In this document: piece after piece, positions 3,316 to 28,536 of the stretch
How the letters are laid out: each line of letters opens with the position of its first letter
Numbering within the stretch: the stretch's first letter is position 1
NCBI GenBank assembly: GCA_013204605.1
Contig: JABMNI010000014.1
Location: 1-55,150 of the forward strand
Length of the DNA: 55,150 bases
Source: Ignavibacteria bacterium
GTDB taxonomy: Bacteria > Bacteroidota > Ignavibacteria > Kapaibacteriales > Kapaibacteriaceae
Direction: 5' to 3'
Notes under the pieces: generated by a model
The model's database searches: none
Seen by the model: only the letters and a program-made list of their open reading frames with translations
Told to the model about the DNA's origin: nothing
Position numbers and translations under genes: made by a program

Positions 3316-4188
3316 ATGAAAAGAGATTACTATTATGAGCTTTCAGATAAGGGTGAACTGACTATAGATGGACACGTGCAAGATGATCCGTGGTTTTTGG
3401 ATTTCTTTTTTCGCAGGCTGGCGCCAACAGCCGATGAGCATTATAAGGAGTTTCCGTTCGTGTGCCGGTGTGGCGACGAGATGAACTATTTAAAGCCGGT
3501 CGACGCACCAATAGTGTATCATCGGCTGGAAGATGCTCGACTGATGTACGGAAGTAGCTTGACCTCTTTTTTCAATCCCAATAAACTTGCGGTTTCGAAT
3601 TCGGGTGTAATGTATCATTGGGCACCCGTTGGTGAATGGGGGAGACTGGTTGCAAACGTTGCTTTAGAAATTGCTCAGAACGTAGAAGCGTGGGGTCCGT
3701 TTTTAGCCTTTGTTGATAGAGAAGCCGGCGTGCGGTATCCCATCTTACCACTGTGGTTGCAGGACAAGTATACCTTTGTCCGACCTAAACGCGATAATGC
3801 CTGTGTGGCCTGCGGCGAAGCCAATCCCTTTTCAATGAAGCTAACCTTTGTGTTTGACTCCGAAACCGAAGTGATGAGTACGTATGTCAAACCGGATATG
3901 CGTATGATGGGGACTCATGGAATTACTCATGGTGGATATGTTTCGATGTTGTTGGATGAGACAATGGGAAAGAGTTTGTCGTTTAAGGGAGTAAGGGCGC
4001 CGACCGCCAACTTAAACGTAACTTTTCGAAAACCCATGTTGTTGGGTGAAGAGTATCACATCAAATCGTGGATAGAAAAAACTGATGGTAGAAAGAATTT
4101 TCTACGTGGTGAAATTGTATGCACATCCAACCCCGAAATAATTGTAGCCACGGCAACGGCACTATTTATTACTGTTAAATCGTCTTAG
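3316..4188 (+). CDS. DUF4505 (UPF0598/C8orf82-like) domain fused to a PaaI-type hotdog thioesterase
   Basis: A 290-residue two-domain protein. Residues 1-145 resemble the UPF0598/DUF4505 family known from human C8orf82: YYYELSDKGEL, FLDFFFRRL, FPFVCRCGDEMNYL, then YHWAP and GRLVANVALEI. Residues about 155-290 form a hotdog fold of the PaaI/4HBT acyl-CoA thioesterase kind, with the lead-in CVACGEANPFSMKL and the active-site pattern HGG (205-207) followed by LLDETMG (212-218). The second half is therefore expected to hydrolyse acyl-CoA thioesters; the role of the first half is unknown. It starts at ATG 3316, just after an AAGCCCCTT word at 3302-3310, and lies 28 bases downstream of argS. The domain assignments come from memory of family patterns. 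Confidence 0.75.
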   Translation: MKRDYYYELSDKGELTIDGHVQDDPWFLDFFFRRLAPTADEHYKEFPFVCRCGDEMNYLKPVDAPIVYHRLEDARLMYGSSLTSFFNPNKLAVSNSGVMYHWAPVGEWGRLVANVALEIAQNVEAWGPFLAFVDREAGVRYPILPLWLQDKYTFVRPKRDNACVACGEANPFSMKLTFVFDSETEVMSTYVKPDMRMMGTHGITHGGYVSMLLDETMGKSLSFKGVRAPTANLNVTFRKPMLLGEEYHIKSWIEKTDGRKNFLRGEIVCTSNPEIIVATATALFITVKSS

Positions 4189-16486: not shown

Positions 16487-19400
16487 ATGTCTCGGTTTGC
16501 AATTATCCTTTTTTTAATCTTCACTTTTGTTGCCAATGGTTTGGCGCAAGTGGAAAGGGTATTGCCTAAAAATAATGGCTCGTCGTTAGAGGGAACGTCG
16601 TTCGTAGTGGGTTTCATGCAAAATGAATTGGTTGAAAGGGGCTATACGCCTCGTTTGCAGTTGTTTATCTGCTCTAGATTCGACGCCGCTGTTACCATCG
16701 AGTATCCCGGTGGTTGGGTTGCGTACAGGAGTATTCCAGCAGATTCAATTTTGGTTGAGAATGTTGGCCCGCAATTGATGAGTTCGAAATCCGAAGTAAT
16801 TGATTTGAAATCAATTTTTATCAAGAGTGACGTTCCAATTGTTGTGTACGCGTTGAACACATTGGCAACCTCAACGGATTCTTATTCGGCGATCCCAATT
16901 AAGCACCTTGGTAAAAGCTACTTGACTTTCAACAAGCAGAATGACAGATATGGCTTAAATGCAAACATTCAAGATGCTACGGATACGATGGCTCGCGCCA
17001 GTGAGTTCATGATATTAGCAGTAGAGGACGGGACCTTTGTTGACATTATACCAACTCAATTGACCGAAAGAGGTTTTTCACGTACCCGACCCATCTCAAC
17101 TGCCTTAAATAGGGGACAATCGTACTTAGTAAAGTCATCAAATGCCAGAAATCAAAATGGTGATTTGACTGGGTCGAGGATAACATCAAATAAACCCATA
17201 GCAGTGCTTAGCGGACACGTTCGAGCAGGACTGCCCGCTGGACCTGCCGCGTCAAAGGATCATTTGGCTGAGATGTTAACCCCAGTTGAAAAGTGGGGCA
17301 AAAGCTACGTTTCAACCAAATTCGCAGTTGCTTCATTCTTAGATATTATTCGAGTAATGGTAGCTGAGGATGATACTTGGGTTGACATTATGACCAATAC
17401 CGGTGTTAATTCACAGTACTTTGCTAAAGCAGGTGACTATAGAGAATTCTCAGCGTCAAAGCCAACCTACTATAGCAGCTCGAAAAATTTTGCTGTTGCA
17501 CAATACATGCAAAGTTCTTCAACTGCACCAGGTGCTAATAAAATTTATGATCCGGCGCTAGTTATACTTCCTGCTACAAATCAATTTGTGTCTAGCGCCT
17601 TGTTCCAATTTCCGATCCTGGATTCCCAAAGCATCCAAAATGGGCAACAGGTATTCAGTTATTACGTGAACGTTATTGCAGATAGTATTGCGTTGCCTTC
17701 GTTAACACTTAACAATGTGTTGGTTTCAACCATGGCTCCACAGATATTAACACAAAGGGTGCCGGGAACTCCGCTGTATTGGACCCAACTAAGTTTACCG
17801 TTGGGAAAAACGTACTTGATGAGGTCAGATACCGGAACATTTAGTGGAGTAATGTACGGCACATCTAATTACGATTCTTATGCCAACCTCTTTGGAATGT
17901 CCTTTGAGCCCCCTTCAAAAACGGATGAAACACCTCCTAAATATGCCTTGAACTATAATTGCGGGGTAGTATCTGGAATTATTCGGGATTACTCTTCAGA
18001 AACTCCGTACTTATCGGATGTTTCGGTACAGACCAAGCAGTCCTACAATTATAATTGGAGTATTTCAAACGAGCTTGATACATTCGGGACGAGACAAATA
18101 GACGCAAATGTGAAAGACCTTTCTAGGGATGGACAGCTTGTAATCCATTCGTACGACAACAAAGGAAATGGTCGAGAATGGTCAGTATTTTACGATGCCC
18201 CGAGTTACACGGCAACCAAAAAGGCAATATTTCCTATGCAGATGGGCGTTGAGATTTGCAGTACGATTGTAATTCGGAATACCGATAAAACCCCGATGGT
18301 TATTAATCGTGTTTCGATTAATGGGGCTTTGGAGTATTCTTTAAAAAATGCACCGACTGCAGATATAATAGTGGCCCCAGACGACAGCGTATCGTTGTTG
18401 GTTTGCTACACCGCAGTGAAGCCCCCGACGAATTCAAAAGGCACTGTGGAAGTGCGTTTTGCGTGCGGATTGACCCATTCTATCCCAGTAGAGAACGAAC
18501 TCTCGCCTTTGATAACTCTGACAGACTTAGATTTTGGAAGTGTTCGAATTGGTGATACCGCTTGTGGTGTTATAAAAATTAGCTCAGAGGGAACTCAGAC
18601 AGCATACATTGAATCAATCCACCCAGCCATAGATTATACTTCCGAATTTTTCTACGATTTGTCAGGAATCATTTTTCCCATTGAATTGAAGCCTGGTGAA
18701 AGTATTGATTTGTCAGTTTGTTTTGCACCAGATTATCAGAAAGCATACTTCAAGTTAGACACAGTGTATTCGAGCGCTGGTAATGTTCAGTATCGTTTTT
18801 CGGGTAGGGGAGTAAGGCCTCAGGTTGAAAGTATCGTTATAGATTGGGGCAAGCGTCGGGTGGGTACAGTTTCGGATACATTTGCATTGATATGGAATAA
18901 TGGAGATGATAAGTGTATAATCGATTGCGGCAAGATTGGAAACTCAAGCCCAGTTTTTACCACGCCGGATTTCTGTTCACCGAGTGCTACGATCAACGTT
19001 AATCAAGCCTCGACCTCAAAAATTTCTTTCCAACCCAATAGAGAAGGAATTTTCGAATGGAAATTGCCGGTACTTGTTGACTGGAAGTTTCACGATACAG
19101 TTTGGGTGACGTTGCGAGGCGAAGGCACGCTGCCGTTACTTCGTACTCAGATGATTGATATGGGCTCAGTAGTAATTTTTAGTAGGAAGGACAGCGTTGC
19201 TGAGTTTTTCCGTTTGGATGGTACCGAAGCGCTGGATATTACCAGCGTCGTGCAAACTGGACCAAATTCGAACATGTTCGAACTACCTGTTGCACTTTTT
19301 GGAGTTAAAAGACTCGACGTTAATGATATCATAACAGGTACGGCCACCTTCGCACCAACAGCCGTCGGCCCGTTCTTGACGGAAATTGAACTTCGGCACA

Positions 19401-20476
19401 AAGGCCTGCCAGGTTTTGCCGAAACTATCGATAAAGTCATTGTAAAGGGGATGGGCATTCCCATCGACACTATGGGTATCAAAGCAAGTTTAGATGCTGA
19501 TTTGGTTGTTAATGCCTGCGTTGTAAATGACGCAAAGGTGGAAGTGGTTAACACGGGTAATATTCCACTGGTAGTCAATTCAATTGTCGTGTTGTTTGAC
19601 GGCAAAAACATTTCGGTTTCAACTGCAGCAGATACAATTGCTGTTGGGTCAAAAAATATTTACACATTTTCATTTATTGCCGACCGCACAAGTGGGTCCA
19701 ATTTTGTGGTAAAAATTCAATATGCCGATTCACTTGAATTAGTAATTCCGCATTCATTTGACATTAATTACTTCAAGCCCACAATTACGGCAGAACACCC
19801 TAACTCAATAGGAGCGGGAACACCTGTTGAACTTAGGATGCATGTTAGTCAAACACGTTCGTACGACACACCGGATGAATTTGTGCTTGATTTGAATATT
19901 GATGATACTAGATTTGAACTAACCAGCGTGACAGCGGACGTTAATGTGTCGGATGCGCTTTATTCTAACGAAGTAAGAAAATGTCAATTAGTTAAATCTA
20001 AAAATAACGTGAGAATGCTGCTAGGTAGATTAGTGCAAGCGCCGTACGCTGTCGACATCAAATTCTCTGGGACTGCGCTTTGGAGAACACCCGATGCTAC
20101 GCAATTCTATATAAAAAAGCCACCCTCAAGTTGCGAATCCGAGACTACGGAAAATGGCGAGATGTTGATTGATCTTTGTGCGGCGCCGCTGAGGGTGATA
20201 AAGTTTGGGTCGTTCGGGCTAGTAACTGGAAATTTGGTAAGCGAAATAGCCGATAATCTTGTGGAATTAGAGCTAAATTCCACTATAAATACGCCAATTT
20301 CTATCAGTGCGACATCGGTATTTGGAAAAAAAATTGACGTTGTTCATAAATATTCTTTGCAAAAAGGCTACCAACGTTGTAATTTTTCGTGTTCTAGCTG
20401 GGCGACAGGTTTATATTTACTTGAAATCCAGCATCAATCTGGTGTTATTCATGCGTCAGTTTTAATTGTCCACTAG
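16487..20476 (+). CDS. Large secreted surface protein: IgGFc-binding-like N-terminus, Ig-like/SPD-2-type repeats, T9SS-like C-terminus
   Basis: A 1329-residue protein with signal peptide (hydrophobic 4-20, LAQ cleavage). Residues about 25-460 have the periodic pattern of the IgGFc-binding N-terminal domain (SEFMILAVEDGTFVDIIPT; GSRITSNKPIAVLSGHVRA; FLDIIRVMVAEDDTWVDI). The middle (about 600-1010) holds repeated immunoglobulin-like modules of the ASPM/SPD-2/Hydin 'choice-of-anchor' kind (LDFGSVRIGDTACGVIKI; PGESIDLSVCFAPDYQ). A cohesin-like domain follows (about 1100-1210). The final 80 residues resemble a degenerate T9SS sorting domain ending GLYLLEIQHQSG. It should be secreted to the cell surface. 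It shares this overall plan with the protein at 24088. The barrel gene starts 13 bases after its stop. Confidence 0.7.
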   Translation: MSRFAIILFLIFTFVANGLAQVERVLPKNNGSSLEGTSFVVGFMQNELVERGYTPRLQLFICSRFDAAVTIEYPGGWVAYRSIPADSILVENVGPQLMSSKSEVIDLKSIFIKSDVPIVVYALNTLATSTDSYSAIPIKHLGKSYLTFNKQNDRYGLNANIQDATDTMARASEFMILAVEDGTFVDIIPTQLTERGFSRTRPISTALNRGQSYLVKSSNARNQNGDLTGSRITSNKPIAVLSGHVRAGLPAGPAASKDHLAEMLTPVEKWGKSYVSTKFAVASFLDIIRVMVAEDDTWVDIMTNTGVNSQYFAKAGDYREFSASKPTYYSSSKNFAVAQYMQSSSTAPGANKIYDPALVILPATNQFVSSALFQFPILDSQSIQNGQQVFSYYVNVIADSIALPSLTLNNVLVSTMAPQILTQRVPGTPLYWTQLSLPLGKTYLMRSDTGTFSGVMYGTSNYDSYANLFGMSFEPPSKTDETPPKYALNYNCGVVSGIIRDYSSETPYLSDVSVQTKQSYNYNWSISNELDTFGTRQIDANVKDLSRDGQLVIHSYDNKGNGREWSVFYDAPSYTATKKAIFPMQMGVEICSTIVIRNTDKTPMVINRVSINGALEYSLKNAPTADIIVAPDDSVSLLVCYTAVKPPTNSKGTVEVRFACGLTHSIPVENELSPLITLTDLDFGSVRIGDTACGVIKISSEGTQTAYIESIHPAIDYTSEFFYDLSGIIFPIELKPGESIDLSVCFAPDYQKAYFKLDTVYSSAGNVQYRFSGRGVRPQVESIVIDWGKRRVGTVSDTFALIWNNGDDKCIIDCGKIGNSSPVFTTPDFCSPSATINVNQASTSKISFQPNREGIFEWKLPVLVDWKFHDTVWVTLRGEGTLPLLRTQMIDMGSVVIFSRKDSVAEFFRLDGTEALDITSVVQTGPNSNMFELPVALFGVKRLDVNDIITGTATFAPTAVGPFLTEIELRHKGLPGFAETIDKVIVKGMGIPIDTMGIKASLDADLVVNACVVNDAKVEVVNTGNIPLVVNSIVVLFDGKNISVSTAADTIAVGSKNIYTFSFIADRTSGSNFVVKIQYADSLELVIPHSFDINYFKPTITAEHPNSIGAGTPVELRMHVSQTRSYDTPDEFVLDLNIDDTRFELTSVTADVNVSDALYSNEVRKCQLVKSKNNVRMLLGRLVQAPYAVDIKFSGTALWRTPDATQFYIKKPPSSCESETTENGEMLIDLCAAPLRVIKFGSFGLVTGNLVSEIADNLVELELNSTINTPISISATSVFGKKIDVVHKYSLQKGYQRCNFSCSSWATGLYLLEIQHQSGVIHASVLIVH

Positions 20477-24087: not shown

Positions 24088-27000
24088 ATGCAACTATTCT
24101 CGTCTAATTTTCGGAAGCTTTCAGTGTTTGCCATTATCCTCATTGTGGGTGTTATGGCTGTTACTGCACAAGTAACCGAGCGACGCGGAACCACGGCGCT
24201 TGTTGAGGGACGCCGTTATATGGTAGCCTTCCCTAAAGTATGGGCAAGTTCGTCGGAAAAGCCACTTCCTCAACCGATGGTATTATTTGTTTCTTCACGT
24301 TCGAAGGCAACTATTACAGTGAGCACTCCGGCGCTCATCAATAGTGCACCGAAGTTGAACAGACAGTATAATCTTGAGGCAAATAAAGTTTTGGTTATTC
24401 CGATTTCCACAACATACATGAATGAAGATTCTGAGTCTAGACTTGGATTGGGAATTTCTGTGATTGGTGATAAACCAATATCAGTTTCTACATATCAAGC
24501 TTGGATGGGTAATGGGGAGTTAGCTCGTCACCTACCAGTTGAAGCTTGGGGTAAGAATTATTACTCGATGAACTTCTATCAAGATAGATATGGTGGATCG
24601 ACTGGACGAAAATATCGTCCATCTCAAATTCTAGTTATTGCTTCAAAAGATAACACCGTAGTAACCTACACTCCGACATTTTCTACTGAAGGTGGAAGAG
24701 AAACCCCTTCTGTCGCAAAAGGTGCTAGTCAGTCAGTTACGTTAGAAAAAGGCGAAACGTATTTAATACTTGCAAAAATTGACGAGCTCTTGAATAAAGA
24801 CTTTAGGTCTGATCTAACAGGAACAGTCATCAAGTCAAGCAAGCCAGTTGGTGTTGTATCGGGTCACACGAAGGTAGCCATCATGCGTTACCCGGATGTA
24901 TTGCCTCCAACAGGTATGTACGCAGCTGAGGCGCATTTTGTTCGTAACAACGTACATGATGCGATGTTACCTTTAGAAATGGCCGGAACGTCATTTATTA
25001 CTACACCGTGTAAATACACTGCCACACGCGTAACAACAGGTGCCGGTGCAGAGTTTGGAATTGATGATGACAAAGGTGATGTAGTACGCGTTATAGCTTT
25101 GGAAGACAACACAGTTGTTAAGGCGATGCGTCAAAATGGCAGTGACTTCTTAAATATGTACACTTTGAAAAAAGGTGAATCAAGATTAGCAACTTCCCTT
25201 GAAGTCGCTACGTATTGGGTATCAGACAAGCCAGTTCTAATGGCTCAGTATGGTAAGTCATACGCTAAGATCTTACCGCCGGTTATAAATAAAGGTGGCG
25301 ATCAAACTCAAGGACACCCGACAGTTGAGTCAGGCATGCCGATGATGCAGTATGTAGCGTCGACAGACCGGTACGTGAACTACGCTGTCTTCAAATCAGT
25401 TGAGGGCATGGATAACTTCTTTAACATCGTGTTTAAAGAAGAAGAAATCGGCAAAATTAAAATTGATGGTAAGGCTTTGAATTCCGCCTTTGGTGGATCA
25501 ATGCGTAAGATTCAAGGTTCACCATACTCGTATATCGCAACTTCAATCGGTGCTGGCGATCACGTAGTAGAATCAGTTGATGAGTCAGTTAAATGGACAG
25601 CTTGGTCGTATGGATCTCTTGATGGTCTAGCAATGGGTCGTGCCTATGGTACTCCTGTAGCGGTTGACCTGTCAATTCCTTGCGATGATTCATTGTCTGT
25701 AACAGAGGAAATCGTTTGTGGTGACGTGAATGGCGTAGGTAAAATTCTTCCTGAAGAAACTACTTGTGGATCAATCTTCGCCATCTACGCTGATGATTTG
25801 AATAACTACACTTTTGAAGAAGATCCAGCCAACGAAGAAAATAATAAGATTGCAAAATTCACTTTGACGGTAATTGACAAGACAAAGGATGCTTCTGGTA
25901 AGATTCTTGTTATTACACGTTCAGGTAAATTTGTTGAGCGCACTTATACGTACATTGCTGACAAAATTGGTTGGGATCCTGAGAAAATCGACTTCGGTGC
26001 AATTGCTTTCAACACTCCTGTTTGCAAGCAAATGACTCTAATCAATAAGAGTCTTGACATGCCGGTTACTATTCTTAATGTGCATGGTAAATACTTCCCA
26101 GGAGTATACACGTTCAATCCTAAAGGACCTTTTGTTATTCCTCCGGGTGGACGTCAGAACATCGAAGTTTGTGCTGTAATTTCTGATACTAGGGAAAAGC
26201 TTGATACAGTGATAGCTGATTTGGCTTGTTTCCAACAGATAACAACCGAATTGCGTGTTCGTGGTGATGAGCCTTTGCTTTATGTAGGCGATCAAACATG
26301 GACCAACATTCCTGCTAGTTCTCCTGGTATTGTTAAGCCGGTAGAAATCATTAACGGTGGTAAGGTAGATTTGATTATCACAGGTTATGATAGATCTCTA
26401 CTTGACAAAAACACAAGTAACTTCTTTGATCCTCAAAACCTTGACAATGTTCTTCCTTTGACTCTAAAAGCTGGTCAAAAACATCTTTTCATGGTAACCT
26501 ATAGTCCTAAGGGTGATGCTGTTACGCAACACCAAGTTGACGTTCCATTCTACTCTAACGCGTTGAAAGTTGATTCGATTGCTGTTCTAAAAGGTAACGG
26601 CGTGACTATTGACATTTCTGCAGACATCAATGCATGGAACGAGAGAGTTATCGATGTGATCCAGACAAATCAGGGTATTGCGAAGTACATGAAGAAAGCT
26701 ACTTTCAACAACTTCGGTCTACTACCAGTTGAGTTTGGAACTCCATTTATTCGCGGAACAAACGCATCAGCATTTGAAATTGTGAACCTTGGTGATGCAG
26801 GTACATTCCCAATTCAACTTCAAGCTGGAAATACTTCTCAATCCAAGTATATTACAGTGGATTTTGTGCCAACTGAATTACCAAATCGTGCTGGCGAAAA
26901 GAATGATTATGCAGCTGAATTGGTATTCCCAACTAACGCAGCATCGGGCGAACTAGTAGTACCACTAGTAGCTCAAGCATGGCAGCCGCAAGTAAAAGGT

Positions 27001-28536
27001 GCTGACCAAGACTACGGTACATTTAACGTTGGTGATGCATCCGTTGTGATGGATATTCCAATTGTGAATGAGCATTACCAAGGTCTTGCTAACGGTGTTA
27101 CTGGCGACGCTAAAGGAACTCACGATGTTGTGATTACTGATATCCGTATCAAGGGTGCTGCCAATGGTTTCCGTATGGAAAACGCTCCTTCTGCAACGAA
27201 CCCATGGAGAGTTTCTGCATCTGATGTTATGAATTTGCAAGTACGTTTTACTCCAGCGTTGTCGGGTAGCTTTGTTGCTGACTACGAGATCATTACGTTG
27301 CCAACTGATATGACAGATGGTGCGGCACCATACACACCTGCTTATAAATTGAATGCAGTTGTTGTTGGTGGTGAGTTCATGGTTACAGGTGACTCAGCTG
27401 ATCAGTATGTATATAATGACAAAGAGTTGATCATTAAAGTAAGACACACAGAAGCAGCTCCTCGTAGCTTTACAATTTCTTCTGCTTTAGGTGCCGACGC
27501 GTCGAGATTTACAATTGTTGAGCCCCTTTCTGGTTCGATCGTTGTACCTCAAGGACAAGAAGGCATCATTCGTGTACAGTTTGTTCCGGACTACATTACA
27601 AAAATGAATGCTGGTCAAACAGACACATGGTTGGCATCTAAAGGTGTTCCGCAAGGCTTAAATAAGCGTGCGAACTACTTTATGGCTACCATTGATGTTA
27701 CTGATGATATCAACGGTAAGGTTCAAACCGCTCGCGTAGCTGGAAACGGTATCTATCTTGAAACTACAGATAAGATCCGCGACGACTATACAGTGAACGT
27801 TGGTAAGTCTGTGGATGTAGCTATTGAGCTTGAAGGTACTCCTGAAGCAATTCAGGCGGCAGGAATCACTCAGATCAGAACTCGAGTTTCTTATGATAAT
27901 ACGTTGATCCGGCCTCGTATCGATCAGATCGTAACTGCTGGTACTCAAACTGAAGGTTGGACAGTACTTAAAGTTGATCAGGTAGTTGAAGGTATGATTG
28001 AGATAGATTTGGCTGATAAGCGTGCAACGCCAGTAGCTCTTACTAACTCATCAAACGCACCTATGTTTAAGGTTACATTTGATGCTTACCTGGCTCCAGG
28101 TAAAGATCCAAGTGCGCCATTTACTAGCCCATTAGGTGTATATTCATACTGGGTAGACCACACTAGCAAAGGCGAAAGAAAAGAGTTTACGCTAATTCGT
28201 GATATCCCTGGTAAGATTCTTGTTATTCAAGAGTGTGCAAGAGGAATGCGATTAGTAAGCATCTCTTCTACTCAATTTGCTGTGAAGCCTGTATCACCAA
28301 ATCCAGTTTCTGGAAGTGCAATTATCAATTATTCAATTGGATTGTCCGGTGCTACTAAGATTGCTCTTTACAATAGTAATGGTGACTTCATCATGGACTT
28401 CGTAAATGAGAATCAGGCTAAAGGAACTTACGAACTGACAATCGATGTATCTACGATTCCTTCTGGAACATACTTCTTTAAAGTTATTTCTGGACCGTAT
28501 TCTTCAGATGCTCAAGTGCTGAACGTTATTCATTAA
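24088..28536 (+). CDS. Very large secreted surface protein with IgGFc-binding-like N-terminus, cohesin-like domain and T9SS type A sorting domain; probably highly expressed
   Basis: A 1482-residue protein: signal peptide (hydrophobic about 12-27, ending VTAQ), an IgGFc-binding-like region (about 30-520; IASKDNTVVTYTPT, SSKPVGVVSGHTKVA, ALEDNTVVKA), Ig-like/SPD-2-type repeats (about 620-1200; IDFGAIAFNTPVCKQMTLIN and copies), a cohesin-like domain (about 1240-1380) and a T9SS type A domain at the end (SPNPVSGSAIINYSI, IPSGTYFFKVISG). Codon use differs from its neighbours: strongly biased to GGT, GCT, GTT, CGT and ACT endings, the usual mark of abundant proteins. It has a GGAG ribosome binding site, a long leader and a strong terminator of its own. 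I infer an abundant surface-layer or sheath component. The dispersed AGGGGCT word occurs only once in its 4.4 kb. Confidence 0.78.
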   Translation: MQLFSSNFRKLSVFAIILIVGVMAVTAQVTERRGTTALVEGRRYMVAFPKVWASSSEKPLPQPMVLFVSSRSKATITVSTPALINSAPKLNRQYNLEANKVLVIPISTTYMNEDSESRLGLGISVIGDKPISVSTYQAWMGNGELARHLPVEAWGKNYYSMNFYQDRYGGSTGRKYRPSQILVIASKDNTVVTYTPTFSTEGGRETPSVAKGASQSVTLEKGETYLILAKIDELLNKDFRSDLTGTVIKSSKPVGVVSGHTKVAIMRYPDVLPPTGMYAAEAHFVRNNVHDAMLPLEMAGTSFITTPCKYTATRVTTGAGAEFGIDDDKGDVVRVIALEDNTVVKAMRQNGSDFLNMYTLKKGESRLATSLEVATYWVSDKPVLMAQYGKSYAKILPPVINKGGDQTQGHPTVESGMPMMQYVASTDRYVNYAVFKSVEGMDNFFNIVFKEEEIGKIKIDGKALNSAFGGSMRKIQGSPYSYIATSIGAGDHVVESVDESVKWTAWSYGSLDGLAMGRAYGTPVAVDLSIPCDDSLSVTEEIVCGDVNGVGKILPEETTCGSIFAIYADDLNNYTFEEDPANEENNKIAKFTLTVIDKTKDASGKILVITRSGKFVERTYTYIADKIGWDPEKIDFGAIAFNTPVCKQMTLINKSLDMPVTILNVHGKYFPGVYTFNPKGPFVIPPGGRQNIEVCAVISDTREKLDTVIADLACFQQITTELRVRGDEPLLYVGDQTWTNIPASSPGIVKPVEIINGGKVDLIITGYDRSLLDKNTSNFFDPQNLDNVLPLTLKAGQKHLFMVTYSPKGDAVTQHQVDVPFYSNALKVDSIAVLKGNGVTIDISADINAWNERVIDVIQTNQGIAKYMKKATFNNFGLLPVEFGTPFIRGTNASAFEIVNLGDAGTFPIQLQAGNTSQSKYITVDFVPTELPNRAGEKNDYAAELVFPTNAASGELVVPLVAQAWQPQVKGADQDYGTFNVGDASVVMDIPIVNEHYQGLANGVTGDAKGTHDVVITDIRIKGAANGFRMENAPSATNPWRVSASDVMNLQVRFTPALSGSFVADYEIITLPTDMTDGAAPYTPAYKLNAVVVGGEFMVTGDSADQYVYNDKELIIKVRHTEAAPRSFTISSALGADASRFTIVEPLSGSIVVPQGQEGIIRVQFVPDYITKMNAGQTDTWLASKGVPQGLNKRANYFMATIDVTDDINGKVQTARVAGNGIYLETTDKIRDDYTVNVGKSVDVAIELEGTPEAIQAAGITQIRTRVSYDNTLIRPRIDQIVTAGTQTEGWTVLKVDQVVEGMIEIDLADKRATPVALTNSSNAPMFKVTFDAYLAPGKDPSAPFTSPLGVYSYWVDHTSKGERKEFTLIRDIPGKILVIQECARGMRLVSISSTQFAVKPVSPNPVSGSAIINYSIGLSGATKIALYNSNGDFIMDFVNENQAKGTYELTIDVSTIPSGTYFFKVISGPYSSDAQVLNVIH

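Follow-up and report, generated by a model that had tools for sequence, protein, structure and literature searches.

The window analysed here is a stretch of 55,150 nucleotides of DNA from an Ignavibacteria bacterium (contig JABMNI010000014.1, assembly GCA_013204605.1). Near its start lies an ORF that, according to the original prediction, fuses a DUF4505 domain to a PaaI-type hotdog thioesterase within a single frame. Between the preceding stop and the ATG at 3316 this frame contains no further start codon (ORF 3316-4188). The ORF and its two domains are as follows:

3316..4188, + strand, fusion ORF of 290 aa, DUF4505 domain of predicted DUF1285 fold plus hotdog thioesterase domain
3316..3750, + strand, DUF4505 (UPF0598/C8orf82-like) domain, residues 1-145, from the PF14956 match and the structure model
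3769..4185, + strand, hotdog (4HBT) domain and the segment preceding it, residues 152-290, from Pfam, profile and fold

Both domains exceeded their Pfam cut-offs in the fusion ORF, and the fusion proved to be conserved, as described below, so that the predicted architecture was borne out. DUF4505 (PF14956) scored 65 bits against a cut-off of 27.3 (E 9.6e-18), and 4HBT (PF03061) scored 31.8 bits against a cut-off of 20.6 (E 1.8e-7, residues 201-271). When the two halves were scanned separately, the first matched DUF4505 only and the second matched 4HBT-type families only; these are the families that had been named in advance as the test for residues 1-145 and for the second half. The PF14956 match spans residues 3-123; in the model, the second helix is followed by a further meander of three strands (123-145).

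The second half carries the HGG...LLDE signature that had been reported for it, in the form HGGYVSMLLDE at residues 205-215. Asp214, the acidic residue nine positions past His205, corresponds in position to the Asp proposed as catalytic in PaaI (motif and Asp61 as given in the part of PMC516016 consulted). We aligned 33 fused proteins, in all of which His205 and Asp214 are invariant; for Gly206, Gly207, Glu215, Lys219 and Thr230 the sole failure is a degenerate protein (L054) with HWA in place of HGG. The conserved elements of the second half are:

3802..3816, + strand, CxxCG motif (Cys163, Cys166, Gly167) in the segment that precedes the hotdog, its two Cys present in all 33 fused rows
3928..3957, + strand, HGG...D active-site helix (His205, Gly206, Gly207 ... 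Asp214), from row counts and the alignment to 4gah
4003..4005, + strand, Thr230, in 32 of 33 fused rows and aligned with a Thr of THEM4 (4gah)

A model of the whole chain (mdd519c31a18c, built with 36 sequences) reached a pLDDT of 95.6 and a pTM of 0.86. In structural alignments of this model, 2ov9 gave Z 20.0 (135 residues, 2.0 A) and human THEM4 (4gah) gave Z 17.3 (153 residues, 2.7 A). Searched by profile, the solved chains came out with 4gah first (E 8.1e-20), followed by 2ov9 (6.4e-14) and THEM5 (5e-11). We conclude from the Pfam match and the confident model that the second half is predicted to adopt the hotdog fold, and that THEM4/THEM5 and 2ov9 are its best solved relatives by both profile and fold. 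THEM4 and THEM5 are mitochondrial proteins. The Asp and the Thr of the window's hotdog both align with THEM4, but the THEM4, THEM5 and 2ov9 chains lack a DUF4505 domain and are only 14-25% identical to it. Among the matches listed in our literature search, we found no catalytic residues for THEM4 or THEM5. The second half alone scored 18.1 bits against a cut-off of 118.9 for the PaaD/PaaI equivalog model of NCBIfam (TIGR02286) and 21.2 bits against 36.6 for TIGR00369; since both models stayed below cut-off, 'PaaI-type' holds in the broad sense only. Thus, the hotdog part of the predicted assignment stands and membership of PaaI proper does not, the nearest solved structures being THEM4 and 2ov9.

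A survey of bacterial genomes found the fusion in dozens of species. In the window's order, which consists of Candidatus Kapabacteria-type MAGs, DUF4505 is present in 46 of 123 genomes. An HGG hotdog could be read in the same frame in 41 of these 46, including one (G675) that ends at a contig edge after HGG. As for the other five, one fusion (G015) is covered to residue 289 and was seen by alignment; a second genome (G733) was counted with DUF4505 and has a 292-aa open frame, left out of the 41; two copies run off the ends of their contigs (G045, and G726 beyond the CxxCG segment); and one (G058) has a degenerate second half with neither HGG nor a Pfam match. There is also a diverged 286-aa fusion (G055) whose DUF4505 score lies under the cut-off. 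The remaining 77 of 123 genomes gave no DUF4505 match, and the fusion protein is therefore dispensable in them.

Within a set of 60 relatives, 41 genomes matched the whole protein at E <= 0.001 and 40 matched DUF4505; the extra match (G053) is weak and C-terminal (E 7.1e-4). DUF4505 and the fusion share the same 40 genomes, and, G053's weak match aside, we saw no close unfused hotdog among the 60 relatives. A sample of 395 genomes from the phylum gave 19 matches, all 19 from the window's own order. The original prediction had named a lost stop codon in this assembly as a possible explanation of the fusion. A lost stop codon or an assembly join is ruled out by the recurrence of the same frame in many genera. 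All 42 fusion-protein matches among the 60 relatives are free of internal stops, and the single TAA seen in a match that runs off its contig (G045) comes before the ATG with which the frame read begins.

One Kapabacteria locus (L063:3986-4852, SKYG35; protein identical to that of L054) retains an intact DUF4505 domain in front of a second half that has HWA for HGG, no Thr230 and no Pfam match, though the CxxC is still present, as is an Asp at position 214. This second half is perhaps a non-enzymatic remnant.

Outside the window's order, DUF4505 turned up in spirochaetes. It is found in 15 of 30 genomes of a Leptospirales-type order, and these same 15 are the only matches among 247 genomes of the spirochaete phylum. 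Eleven of the 15 proteins are stand-alone, three are fused to a hotdog (G425, G584 and G604) and one is fused to a GNAT domain (G538). In seven Leptospirales genomes searched with the window's hotdog, no hotdog lay next to a stand-alone DUF4505. We also scanned GTDB contigs with strict peptide patterns taken from 14 N-halves (alignment A3) and obtained 36 loci, 27 from the window's order, 8 from the Leptospirales-type order and one unplaced (L070); the patterns being strict, more distant DUF4505 proteins may be missed. Plasmids searched by tblastn gave no N-half match.

The GNAT protein is a one-gene DUF4505-acetyltransferase fusion in a single genome (L129:1306-2289), with PF13673 at E 4.8e-16 beside DUF4505 at E 4.3e-18. 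GNAT acetyltransferases use acyl-CoA as their substrate class, so that this is a second acyl-CoA-using partner for DUF4505.

In a tree of 45 N-halves, one branch (91/79, not starred) splits fused from stand-alone copies, and the three Leptospirales fusions group among the Kapabacteria fusions. A transfer of the fusion between the two groups is likely; we put it no higher, since the alternative topology with all Leptospirales rows together was not rejected (p-AU 0.305). In a hotdog tree of 49 rows, 16 of 17 unfused Leptospirales hotdogs group together and apart from the fused ones (84/92). The seventeenth (L114) sits inside the fused ones on a very long branch, and its position is untrustworthy. 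The simplest reading, short of proof, is an old single fusion followed by transfer.

The first half belongs to a family that the original prediction treated as an orphan. Fold searches with the whole fusion returned only hotdog-type top rows, the list being filled by that domain, and we therefore modelled the N-half alone (pLDDT 94.9). Its secondary structure begins with three strands and a helix, continues with nine strands and an additional short one (35-37), and ends with a second helix and three more strands. DUF1285 proteins have been described as two beta3-alpha-beta3 repeats with an extra meander between them (Han et al., PMC2954208, in the part consulted), and the strand and helix plan of the N-half matches that of the longer DUF1285 protein in that paper. 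The N-half superimposed on 2ra9 with Z 11.1 (120 residues, 3.4 A) and on 2re3 with Z 10.3 (134 residues, 3.3 A), with the next row at 3.3 (VIA-align), and Foldseek found the same two structures (2re3 E 3.4e-7, 2ra9 E 1.8e-5).

Sequence searches by themselves did not reach this family. DUF1285 (PF06938) is absent from the Pfam matches of the fusion ORF at E up to 1, and a profile search of solved structures with the DUF4505 alignment (A5, 32 rows) found no chain at E up to 10; the link to DUF1285 thus required comparison of folds and of profiles. For the latter we used a divergent family of DUF1285-like proteins about 150-190 aa long (L148-L156), which PF06938 matches revealed in 9 of the 30 Leptospirales-type genomes, one of the nine above cut-off; five of these nine genomes also have DUF4505. 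The profile of these nine rows (alignment A7) found 2re3 at E 0.0014 and no other chain up to E 10; a phmmer search with one of the proteins reached 2re3 at no better than E 0.63. Comparison of A5 with A7 by hhalign gave a probability of 91.5 (E 8.7e-7 for the pair) over 139 columns, and a control comparison of the hotdog alignment with the DUF1285-like one gave a probability of 0.1. Only two residues of DUF4505 align with invariant polar residues of the DUF1285-like rows:

3478..3480, + strand, Glu55, in 32 of 32 A5 rows and 44 of 45 rows of the wider set, the remaining row having Asp; hhalign pairs Glu55 with Glu54, present in 9 of 9 DUF1285-like rows
3643..3645, + strand, Arg110, in 31 of 32 A5 rows and 42 of 45 rows of the wider set, aligned by hhalign with Arg129, present in 9 of 9 DUF1285-like rows

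The three exceptions at Arg110 are the three Leptospirales hotdog fusions, all of which lack it. Judging by the confident model and the profile comparison, we conclude that DUF4505 has the DUF1285 fold. DUF4505 and the DUF1285 superfamily (PF06938; 2re3, 2ra9) would share a fold over nearly the whole domain and homology over 139 profile columns, the Glu and the Arg included. A 2010 review places UPF0598 with DUF1285 on the strength of personal communications from Aravind and Grishin (PMC2954204, in the part consulted), and our fold and profile comparison is an independent test of the kinship recorded there. The predicted DUF4505 identity of the first half is therefore upheld, but as to structure the family is not an orphan. 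One fusion of a DUF1285 protein is reported in the part of PMC2954208 consulted, and there the partner is a SixA-type phosphatase domain, not a thioesterase.

In that same source, DUF1285 proteins have a conserved cleft formed by the b1-b2 loop, the b6-b7 loop, strand b4 and strands b10-b12, for which a nucleotide-based ligand was suggested. The cleft was said to have no strictly conserved residues and was judged non-catalytic (PMC2954208, in the part consulted). Several of the best conserved positions of DUF4505, counted over 45 fused and stand-alone rows, fall on the corresponding elements. Gly13 (45 of 45) is in the b1-b2 loop; Tyr100 (39), His101 (39, with Tyr in the other six), Gly109 (43) and Arg110 lie on b11 and b12, the second and third of the three strands that lead up to the second helix; and Cys52 (42), which is replaced by Ser, Tyr or Ile in three Kapabacteria fusions, ends strand b4, as counted without the short strand 35-37. 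The argument from the cleft rests on the order of the strands. Arg3 (43 of 45), Tyr7 (42), Asp24 (45), Glu55 and Asn57 are equally conserved and lie off the named cleft elements, which speaks against a role centred on the cleft.

On the basis of the two domains observed, the order in which they occur, the conserved presence of both in one frame, the predicted folds and the conserved motifs, we propose that the fusion protein is an acyl-CoA thioesterase of the HGG/Asp class with an accessory domain of DUF1285 fold that binds a CoA- or nucleotide-type ligand; we give this reading a probability of about 45%. Motif and fold suggest that the hotdog half would hydrolyse an acyl-CoA thioester, with Asp214 of the HGG helix as the catalytic residue. 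For the DUF4505 half, its fold, its conserved positions and its fusion partners suggest that the cleft separating the two repeats may hold a small ligand of the CoA or nucleotide type, through which this half might tune or direct the thioesterase, in a regulatory or delivery role. We favour a CoA- or acyl-CoA-type ligand, since both classes of partner use CoA thioesters and CoA itself carries a nucleotide. No ligand of DUF1285 is given in the literature we consulted on the fold (PMC2954208, in part). Several observations count against the proposal: the GNAT fusion is confined to one genome, Arg110 is gone from the Leptospirales fusions, most Leptospirales DUF4505 proteins (11 of 15) stand alone, a Kapabacteria protein kept DUF4505 beside a degenerate second half, and 77 of the 123 genomes of the order do without DUF4505. 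The pointer from the fusion to acyl-CoA metabolism, which the original prediction drew, is for DUF4505 guilt by association, and its ligand or activity stays a predicted one.

Hotdogs with recruited domains are common, examples being START (BFIT/CACH), CBS/DRTGG, HAD and an acetyltransferase (YiiD) (PMC516016, in the part consulted). The window's protein follows the same plan of a hotdog plus a recruited domain, but both the partner and the fold of the partner differ. This precedent would also suit a purely structural role, in which DUF4505 binds no small molecule and instead acts as a scaffold, holding the hotdog in a given quaternary structure or docking it onto a partner, and the pTM of 0.86 for the whole chain suggests a fixed arrangement of the kind expected of a scaffold. 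However, stand-alone copies keep the same polar residues although they carry no hotdog that these could touch, and we consider a scaffold rather unlikely.

Somewhat less probable, in our view, is a two-step bifunctional enzyme in which DUF4505 itself acts on the substrate or product of the thioesterase. Asp24, Glu55, Tyr7, Cys52 and the pair His101/Arg110 are candidate catalytic residues, the domain also occurs alone, and Asp24, Glu55, Arg3, Tyr7 and Cys52 are each found in 42-45 of 45 rows. Against this, there are exceptions at Cys52 (three Kapabacteria fusions), at Arg110 (three Leptospirales fusions) and at His101 (six rows); the related DUF1285 clefts were judged non-catalytic in the part of PMC2954208 consulted; and Glu55 and Arg110 alone meet invariant polar residues of the DUF1285-like rows. 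We regard as least likely of all a chance joining of two neighbouring genes, fixed without functional linkage: the 91/79 branch of the N-half tree is compatible with a single origin and the surrounding genes are unrelated to lipid metabolism, but mean pairwise identity is 49% for 25 fused A5 rows and 47% for 23 hotdog A6 rows, the motifs of both domains being retained, the 60 relatives showed no close unfused hotdog and carry DUF4505 and the fusion in the same 40 genomes, and three Leptospirales genomes carry the fusion as well.

The family of the first half is best known from human C8orf82. The tie of the window's protein to it is the above-cut-off match to PF14956. UPF0598 is given as a family found in Metazoa (PMC2954204, in the part consulted), whereas the window's DUF4505 domain comes from a bacterium and is part of one chain with an enzyme. 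A published table lists C8orf82 among the proteins of the mitochondrial matrix (PMC7066081, in the part consulted). By analogy, the fusion predicts, without proving, that C8orf82 may act together with a matrix thioesterase or on acyl-CoA. A bolder and doubtful extension of the thioesterase-plus-ligand-domain reading is that DUF4505/DUF1285 could be a family that senses or binds CoA thioesters, with C8orf82 partnering a matrix thioesterase of the THEM4/THEM5 kind as the two-gene equivalent of the fusion. If so, the nucleotide-based ligand suspected in 2010 would be the nucleotide end of CoA.

The literature searched, in the parts consulted, gave no function for C8orf82. It contained no mention of 'DUF4505' or 'PF14956', most subscription papers lying outside the search, and we found nothing in it on F59C6.12, on a Kapabacteria thioesterase or on a fusion of a hotdog thioesterase with a DUF domain. 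The words 'DUF' and 'UPF' are also absent, as separate words, from the part of PMC516016 consulted. Hotdogs with accessory domains are thus already known, and DUF4505 as a predicted partner, recognised here by sequence, appears to be new to the literature searched; the architecture may well be listed already in domain databases. The conserved fusions to a thioesterase-type domain and, once, to an acetyltransferase make C8orf82 and DUF1285 proteins experimentally testable for CoA-type ligands, and the bacterial fusion protein, being small and having a high-confidence model, is a convenient handle for this.

Gene neighbourhoods gave no functional hint that we would trust, either for the fusion or for stand-alone DUF4505. 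In the window, the neighbours of the fusion encode RsfS, ArgS, a metallophosphoesterase, an M20 peptidase, DapF and an inositol monophosphatase family protein; there is no lipid gene among them, which counts against the acyl-CoA thioesterase proposal. The metallophosphoesterase gene (PF00149, 4194-5483) starts 5 bases past the stop codon of the fusion, and its product has an RRDFLKS stretch that we take to be Tat-like. This gene adjoins the fusion in 20 of 20 loci of the window's family (17 genomes) and in some other families; elsewhere, the neighbours of the fusion vary between families. In four loci, of which three were scanned with Pfam, the gene in front of the fusion encodes a D-Tyr-tRNA deacylase.

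Stand-alone DUF4505 genes, for which we scanned one or two members per cluster, lie beside GtrA/GT2 genes (five loci) or rhodanese genes (six loci), or near FliS and BacA. In the five GtrA/GT2 loci, DUF4505 follows directly behind the GtrA and family-2 glycosyltransferase genes (for example L083:3191-4450 and L086:3231-4456), with a one-base overlap in L086 and spacings of 30-45 bases in L083. The window also holds two very long ORFs, at 16487-20476 (1329 aa) and 24088-28536 (1482 aa).
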